NCBI RefSeq assembly: GCF_005796185.1
Contig: NZ_VAHM01000013.1
Coordinates: 1-64,000, forward strand
DNA from: Pseudarthrobacter sp. NamB4
Lineage (GTDB): Bacteria; Actinomycetota; Actinomycetes; Actinomycetales; Micrococcaceae
Direction: 5' to 3'
Length of the DNA stretch: 64,000 bases
The notes beneath the pieces were generated by a model. It saw only the letters and a program-made list of their open reading frames with translations, ran no database searches and was not told where the DNA came from. Shown here piece by piece: positions 28,212 through 47,511 of the stretch. The translations under genes were made by a program, and so were the position numbers. Positions within the stretch are counted from its first letter, which is position 1. The number at the start of each line of letters is the position of its first letter.

Positions 28212-30143
<1,932 letters not shown>

Positions 30144-46623: not shown

Positions 46624-46827
46624 TTAGACGTCCGCGACCTTGCGTCCCTTGTACTCAAGGAACAGCGCAGTGCCGGCCGAGTCGGTGACGACCTTCGCCT
46701 GGTGCGGCAGGCTGTAGGTAACCTGGCCGTTCTCTACGGTCTTCACCAGGTGGGGGGCGGTCGCCTTCCACTGGGAGCGGCGGGCGCGGGTATTCGAGCG
46801 AGACATTTTCCGCTTGGGAACAGCCAC
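46624..46827 (-). CDS. rpmF: 50S ribosomal protein L32 (cysteine-free form)
   Basis: A 67-residue protein beginning [21 protein letters not shown] after GTG 46827, the L32 signature. The zinc-ribbon cysteines of the common form are absent; the whole protein has no Cys. This is the zinc-independent (C-minus) type. It lies between the DUF177 gene and rnc, the usual order. Confidence 0.95.
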
Positions 46828-46863: not shown

Positions 46864-47388
46864 TCAATTTTGCCGGTCAGGCTTAGCCAAATCAGCTAGG
46901 GCAGCCCAGCGAGGATCCGTGACCTCGTGGTGGTGCCCCGGCTCGTCTTCCAGGCGAACTCCGCATTCGGAGCAAAGGCCCTGGCAGTCTTCCCGGCACA
47001 CCGGCTGGAACGGCAGCGCGGTCACCACTGCGTCCCGCAACACCGGTTCAAGATCGATTAGATCGTGCTCGACTCGACGTTGCTCTTCATCATCTTCTTC
47101 GTCCGAGAGCTCAACGCCCTCATAGAAGAAAAGTTCCTGCACATTGACTTCAAGGTCATACGCAAGGGGATCCAGGCATCGGCCGCACTCACCGGTTACC
47201 TCGGTAAGAACGGTTCCTGATACCAGAATTCCTTCGTGTACGGCCTCAAGCCTCAGGTCCAGCTCGACATCCGAGCCCTCCTGAACGCCAATGAGCGCCA
47301 CACCAAGGTCACCTGGTGCGGGTACATGTTCCGTCAGTGTCCGCATGCTTCCCGGGCTGCGCCCGAGATCCTTGACGTCGAACACCAA
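46864..47388 (-). CDS. DUF177 (YceD) family protein
   Basis: A DUF177/YceD protein, usually upstream of rpmF and linked to 23S rRNA or ribosome assembly in plants and bacteria. It has GECGRCLDPL and a C-terminal CREDCQGLCSECG motif with a likely metal site. The annotated TTG 47388 lacks a ribosome-binding site; an in-frame ATT at 47412 has AGGAG 5 nt upstream and would add eight residues. Length 174 or 182 residues. Confidence 0.9.
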   Translation of the reverse strand: MVFDVKDLGRSPGSMRTLTEHVPAPGDLGVALIGVQEGSDVELDLRLEAVHEGILVSGTVLTEVTGECGRCLDPLAYDLEVNVQELFFYEGVELSDEEDDEEQRRVEHDLIDLEPVLRDAVVTALPFQPVCREDCQGLCSECGVRLEDEPGHHHEVTDPRWAALADLAKPDRQN

Positions 47389-47511
47389 GGGCGAACCAGC
47401 ATCTCTTTTAATGAGAACTCCTGTTGAACATATGACCGACGTACCATGTTAGCCCGAAGAGCCGCAGGGACTCAAACCGGCAAGCCGGCGGCGCCGAAGT
47501 ACCGGACAAGC

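Follow-up and report, generated by a model that had tools for sequence, protein, structure and literature searches.

The YceD/DUF177 gene on the minus strand of contig NZ_VAHM01000013.1 of Pseudarthrobacter sp. NamB4, an Arthrobacter-like soil bacterium, very likely initiates at an ATT codon, a reading to which we assign a probability of about 0.93 because of its conservation in the genus, its recurrence at loci of other genera and of the order, and the parallel with infC, which starts at ATT or ATC. Direct observation in the 64,000-nt stretch of DNA analyzed (hereafter the window) and in its relatives covers the ATT with its surroundings and conservation, the extension behind it that looks like coding sequence, and the infC parallel. 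Non-canonical start codons are a known kind of signal, of which the DUF177 gene is a fresh case; no earlier treatment of its AUU start was recognized among the matches listed from the open-licence literature. Few such codons have been characterized experimentally, and start prediction depends on ATG, GTG, and TTG (PMC5472188). If the ATT start is true, annotations of this bacterial family likely put the N-terminus of DUF177 in the wrong place.

Results

Start Site and Gene Neighborhood

A preliminary description of the window had placed AGGAG at 47422-47418, 5 nt ahead of an in-frame ATT at 47412-47410, and these coordinates proved exact (Table 1). The ATT is followed by the codons AAA AGA GAT GCT GGT TCG CCC and then by TTG (47388) and GTG (47385), and the window carries no ATG, GTG, or TTG in the DUF177 frame between 47388 and the upstream in-frame stop, which sits within the -10-like box; the frame is open down to 46864. 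An in-frame start further upstream was rejected, since no canonical codon precedes the ATT before that stop and since leaders of other genera deviate in length by 1-3 nt. As is looked for in an AUH start, the codon is in frame, stands at Shine-Dalgarno distance, is conserved across relatives and has no better canonical alternative, the TTG at codon 9 being neither preceded by a Shine-Dalgarno sequence nor conserved.

The part of the product that begins at the TTG matches the YceD/DUF177 family (PF02620, E 6.2e-33, 113.8 bits versus a gathering cut-off of 33.2), and a search for a solved structure of a relative returned none at E 0.1. The adjacency of rpmF, a trait of the YceD/DUF177 family, is present here, and rnc lies downstream of both genes on the minus strand, followed on that strand by a gene that we presume to be mutM. 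On the other side, 99 bases separate the ATT from a cytidylyltransferase-like gene, which we take to be coaD-like. In E. coli, loss of yceD lowers 23S rRNA and the gene is not essential, plastid 23S rRNA needs a plant relative of YceD, and linkage of yceD to rpmF is found in many bacteria (PMC5049393).

Table 1. Features at and around the proposed DUF177 start, in window coordinates.
Feature	Position	Strand	Remark
Putative ATT start codon, YceD/DUF177 gene	47410..47412	-	Conservation in genus and other-genus loci
Shine-Dalgarno sequence AGGAG	47418..47422	-	5 nt before ATT; genus match pattern
Spacer TTCTC between AGGAG and ATT	47417-47413	-	
YceD/DUF177 CDS if read from ATT	46864..47412	-	182 codons plus stop; frame open from ATT
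N-terminal 8 codons, IKRDAGSP	47389..47412	-	Lost under a gene call at TTG 47388
Conserved leader, presumed 5'UTR, from GTCGGTC	47413..47440	-	Begins 5 nt after the -10-like box
-10-like box TAACAT (genus consensus TAAGAT)	47446..47451	-	Each position at least 0.94 in 104 genus windows
-35-like TTGAGT	47470..47475	-	18 nt before the -10-like box; all positions conserved at 0.99 or more (104 genus windows)
Mini-ORF ATG TTC AAC AGG AGT TCT CAT TAA	47408..47431	-	Stop overlaps ATT
rpmF, ribosomal protein L32, GTG start	46624..46827	-	PF01783, E 1.9e-11; directly downstream of DUF177
Cytidylyltransferase-like gene (Pfam)	48012-47512	-	Upstream neighbor of DUF177

Conservation of the Start Codon

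All 150 of the 150 genus genomes gave a DUF177 match, which was only weak in one of them (G135). Two overlapping sets of genus loci were read, one of 50 loci (the 30 best, 19 more, and that of genome G281) and one of 80, namely the best named loci among 313 GTDB-contig relatives; the titles of these 80 give Arthrobacter, Pseudarthrobacter, Paenarthrobacter, and, in a single case, Micrococcaceae bacterium. The pattern AGGAG-N5-AT[TC] in frame with the core was present in 129 of these 130 loci, a frequency that excludes chance; the 129 loci reduced to 104 distinct 240-nt windows with ATT in 103 and ATC in 1, and ATG was found at the start site of none of the 130 loci. The sole unmatched locus (L112), which comes from a metagenome-assembled genome, has AGGAG and carries ATA at the start site (about position 977). 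With one ATC and one ATA, the genus set shows replacement of the third base by C and by A, but none by G.

In frame, codons 2-8 gave a pairwise pN/pS of 0.22, close to the value for codons 9-50 (0.17), compared to 0.44 and 5.7 in the shifted frames; the ratios for these seven codons are raw and pairwise, with no correction for kinship. Judged from these ratios, the N-terminal extension evolves in a coding-like manner. Conservation of IKRDAGSP in relatives had been proposed as a check on the ATT, and (K/N)R(D/N/G)A(G/S)SP is retained in nearly all genus loci shown, while dissimilarity of homologs upstream of LVFDV had been named as evidence against it; a short stretch ending in (S/A)-P-L is instead shared by many distant homologs whose ATG or GTG start lies upstream of that stretch. 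The earlier proposal of ATT as the DUF177 start is thus well supported through conservation.

Beyond the genus, the DUF177 gene was found in 194 of 197 family genomes and in 32 of 32 genera. Among 40 loci sampled from 25 of the 31 other family genera, 32 carry ATT (22) or ATC (10) in frame, 5-7 nt behind (A/G)GGAG, covering 20 of the 25 genera read, with a linker of 24, 36, 45, or 57 nt to the TTG column. Six loci use ATG or GTG (L064, L066, and L078-L081), another looks GTG-started by eye with a long spacing (L075), and one falls in neither group (L054). In the rest of the order, sampled by 40 loci drawn from 18 families, ATT or ATC occurs behind GGAG 17 codons before the core, that is, in the ATT column of the window, at seven loci (2/2 in family f5, 3/3 in f15, and 2/3 in f8). 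Six of these seven also have a GTG at -8 within the conserved stretch, and two (L188 and L203) hold ATG, GTG, or TTG codons further upstream; the other 33 loci all offer a canonical codon (ATG, GTG, or TTG) within the stretch searched, in many cases between -12 and -22. Of 40 loci from the wider class, one was flagged (L287), which has ATG, TTG, and GTG codons beside the ATT, and none was convincing as an ATT start. Since ATG or GTG serves as the start at six family loci and at most loci read from other families of the order and class, DUF177 function does not require AUU.

The Leader Upstream of the ATT

The leader from GTCGGTC (47440), where the transcript presumably starts, to the ATT is more conserved in the 104 genus windows than the coding sequence that follows, and only position -13 (A/T) falls below 0.99, the AGGAG and the AT bases being conserved by construction because the windows were selected by AGGAG-N5-AT[TC]. 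Upstream of it, the 18-nt spacer between the -35-like and -10-like boxes is mostly variable. A consensus promoter scan gave 0 matches at its threshold for -35/-10 boxes, which counts against reading the two motifs as such boxes; the call of a -10-like box therefore rests on conservation.

The pattern TAnnnT-N5-GTCGG[T/C] was present at 34 of the 40 other-genus loci, compared to 0 in the reversed sequence and 2 on the other strand. A looser version (TAnnnT, 4-6 nt, G[T/C]CGG[T/C]) again matched 34 of the 40 other-genus loci. It also matched 12 of 40 order loci, 11 of them with 5 nt (controls 2 reversed and 0 on the other strand), and 4 of the 40 loci of the class, among which 3 had the 5-nt spacing (controls 1 and 0). 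In the strain's own genome TANNAT-N5-GTCGGTC has one exact site, at the head of the DUF177 gene, and seven sites with one mismatch, against 48 for the reversed pattern. The box-plus-GTCGG pattern (47434-47451 in the window) occurs also where the DUF177 gene has an ATG, and this distribution speaks for the leader block being a transcription-start or 5'-end element that is independent of the AUU.

Two pieces of the window covering the leader folded no more stably than their shuffles (z 0.38 and 0.24), and an Rfam search gave one match, due to chance and far below the gathering score, so that no known RNA element was recognized. In the folding predictions for the genus windows the mean unpaired value was 0.88-0.92 for the ATT and 0.17-0.52 for the TTCTC before it, and the AGGAG was partly paired (0.32-0.51 on average). 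The TTCTC and the GAGA after the ATT can pair with ATTAAAA in the loop (47402-47417, minus strand); with TTCTC apparently paired to GAG(A), the ATT may thus lie in the loop of a weak hairpin.

infC and Other ATT Sites in the Genome

The likeness to infC that the preliminary description had noted is stronger than that description could show, since infC of the strain's own genome reads AACAGGAGCTTTAACATTAGCGAGCCAAGA, an ATT start behind AGGAG. The AGGAG...ATTA of this locus (L091) lies at 28946-28961 on the minus strand of contig C45. Across the 30 best of 61 family genomes with infC, the start codon is ATT in 16 and ATC in 14, and in all 30 loci read it stands 6-8 nt behind AGGAG and is followed by AGC. 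An upstream ATG, GTG, or TTG is present in the open frame at 18 of the 30 infC loci, within 15 codons at 10 of them, and there the assignment rests on Shine-Dalgarno spacing and on the literature. In the strain's own genome, gene callers limited to ATG, GTG, and TTG would misplace the infC start.

The 3.8-Mb genome holds 13 AGGAG-N4..8-ATTA sites, compared to 31 for the reversed pattern, and only those of infC and DUF177 resemble gene starts that have no canonical alternative; inspected individually, the other eleven fall within longer frames or are followed by short ones. The resulting list of AUU genes is incomplete, as the pattern covers only AGGAG as Shine-Dalgarno sequence and ATT followed by a second codon in A. 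One of the sites (L215, C4:48189-48203, minus strand) lies in a palindrome, TTAGGAGGTCCTAA, with only a 24-codon frame, and may be an operator.

Discussion

Two other readings of the start region were weighed. The DUF177 gene could begin at TTG 47388 or GTG 47385, with everything upstream serving as leader only. TTG is an accepted start, it is found at this position in 72 of the 104 genus windows, and the next codon is ATG (codon 10) in 12 and GTG in 9; in all, 73 windows have a canonical codon no later than codon 20, which in most of them is this TTG at codon 9. However, the position is CTG in the remaining 32 windows and the next codon is GCG in 79, 31 windows have no in-frame ATG, GTG, or TTG anywhere between the upstream stop and codon 20, codons 2-8 look like coding sequence, and the SPL before the TTG is conserved in many homologs that start upstream. 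The earlier statement that the TTG and GTG have no ribosome-binding site was also borne out, no Shine-Dalgarno sequence being seen ahead of the TTG in the window. We therefore rejected this start, which we regard as highly improbable. It is hardly more probable that a leader peptide, MFNRSSH, is made from the ATG at 47431 and ends at the TAA overlapping the ATT, with ribosomes reaching the DUF177 frame by coupled restart at the ATT or by a +1 shift. The mini-ORF MF[N/Y]RS[S/F]H* is kept in 103 of 104 genus windows, the leader as a whole is nearly invariant there, and codon 2 has a fixed AA, shared with the TAA, in front of a third base that varies within the genus, but in many other genera the frame or the stop is lost. 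Outside the genus NTG-TTC lies 19, 20, 21, or 22 nt ahead of the ATT or ATC (at two loci the match was to another TTG, at 33), several loci have no NTG-TTC, the ATC species lack the stop, and L061 and L065 stop early. Moreover, codon 2 of infC also starts with A at 30 of 30 loci, so that the mini-ORF stop may be no more than a by-product of A being favored behind ATT, and no Shine-Dalgarno sequence was seen ahead of the mini-ORF ATG in the window.

With the ATT as start, DUF177 would be the first gene of a DUF177-rpmF-rnc group and would be initiated at AUU on a short transcript that begins about 28 nt upstream. The AGGAG would position the 30S subunit, and initiator tRNA would decode AUU as formyl-methionine. 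As IF3 rejects AUU and AUC, synthesis of DUF177 would be weak and would depend on how much IF3 there is relative to free 30S subunits, as for IF3's own gene. infC starts at ATT in E. coli and at ATC in Streptomyces, from which autoregulation follows, and the GTC start of Streptomyces sigR is repressed by IF3, helping to keep sigR below its partner in the same operon (PMC5472188). The likely benefit is that DUF177, a 23S rRNA assembly factor, would be kept well below L32, which is probably encoded on the same transcript; a possible further benefit is that DUF177 would be tied to the state of translation. We infer formyl-methionine initiation, transcript start, operon, IF3 sensitivity, and benefit, with throttling or control by IF3 drawn from published precedents (infC, sigR, and S. 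aureus genes), and on balance we lean towards an AUU start that makes DUF177 low and IF3-tuned.

Alternatively, the ATT may be a real but plain weak start that holds DUF177 at a low constant level relative to L32 and responds neither to IF3 nor to growth, which we consider possible but rather unlikely. E. coli pcnB, reportedly translationally limited by AUU according to a paper title, would be a precedent for AUU as an output limiter, and rpmF directly follows DUF177, L32 being presumably needed in large amounts. In S. aureus grown in poor medium, AUU and AUA starts reach about 10% of the output of AUG, and the output of the ccpN start rises up to 30% in rich medium, whereas the AUU of cvfC1 cut output to about a tenth with no media effect (PMC13009471), and hence an AUU start need not be regulatory. 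On the other hand, a constant low output alone leaves unaccounted why infC and DUF177 share a codon class, and ATG never appears among the 130 genus loci, although GTG or a weaker Shine-Dalgarno sequence could lower output too.

IF3 tuning of DUF177 could be part of something wider, in that IF3 of the Actinomycetales might run a small AUU/AUC regulon including infC and DUF177, with selection holding the start away from AUG in some 20 genera and GUCGGUC acting as a second control; we put this forward tentatively, as an extension that we doubt more than we believe. If it is true, free 30S subunits or low IF3 would raise a fidelity factor together with a 50S assembly factor, giving balanced subunits. 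A long-kept AUU or AUC on a ribosome-assembly gene beside rpmF would offer a natural test case for IF3 regulating other genes.

Among known systems, infC of the same genome is alike in its AGGAG, its AUU or AUC, a second codon starting with A, and a translation-related product, with a spacing of 6-8 nt compared to 5-7 nt for DUF177. DUF177 is not IF3, so that an IF3 effect there would be control of another gene and not self-feedback. In E. coli pcnB the AUU is said to limit output likewise, in a gene unrelated to DUF177. Streptomyces sigR shares with DUF177 an Actinobacterial non-canonical start on the first gene of an operon whose second gene's product is required in excess, but it starts at GTC, not ATT, encodes a sigma factor, and its repression by IF3 is experimentally proven where that of DUF177 is inferred (PMC5472188). 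Similarly, the S. aureus genes cvfC1 (AUU) and ccpN (AUA) combine a conserved non-canonical start with a strong Shine-Dalgarno sequence, as DUF177 does, and cvfC1 is likewise the first gene of its operon; they are other genes in another phylum, and their Shine-Dalgarno sequences are extended, whereas DUF177 has only AGGAG (PMC13009471).
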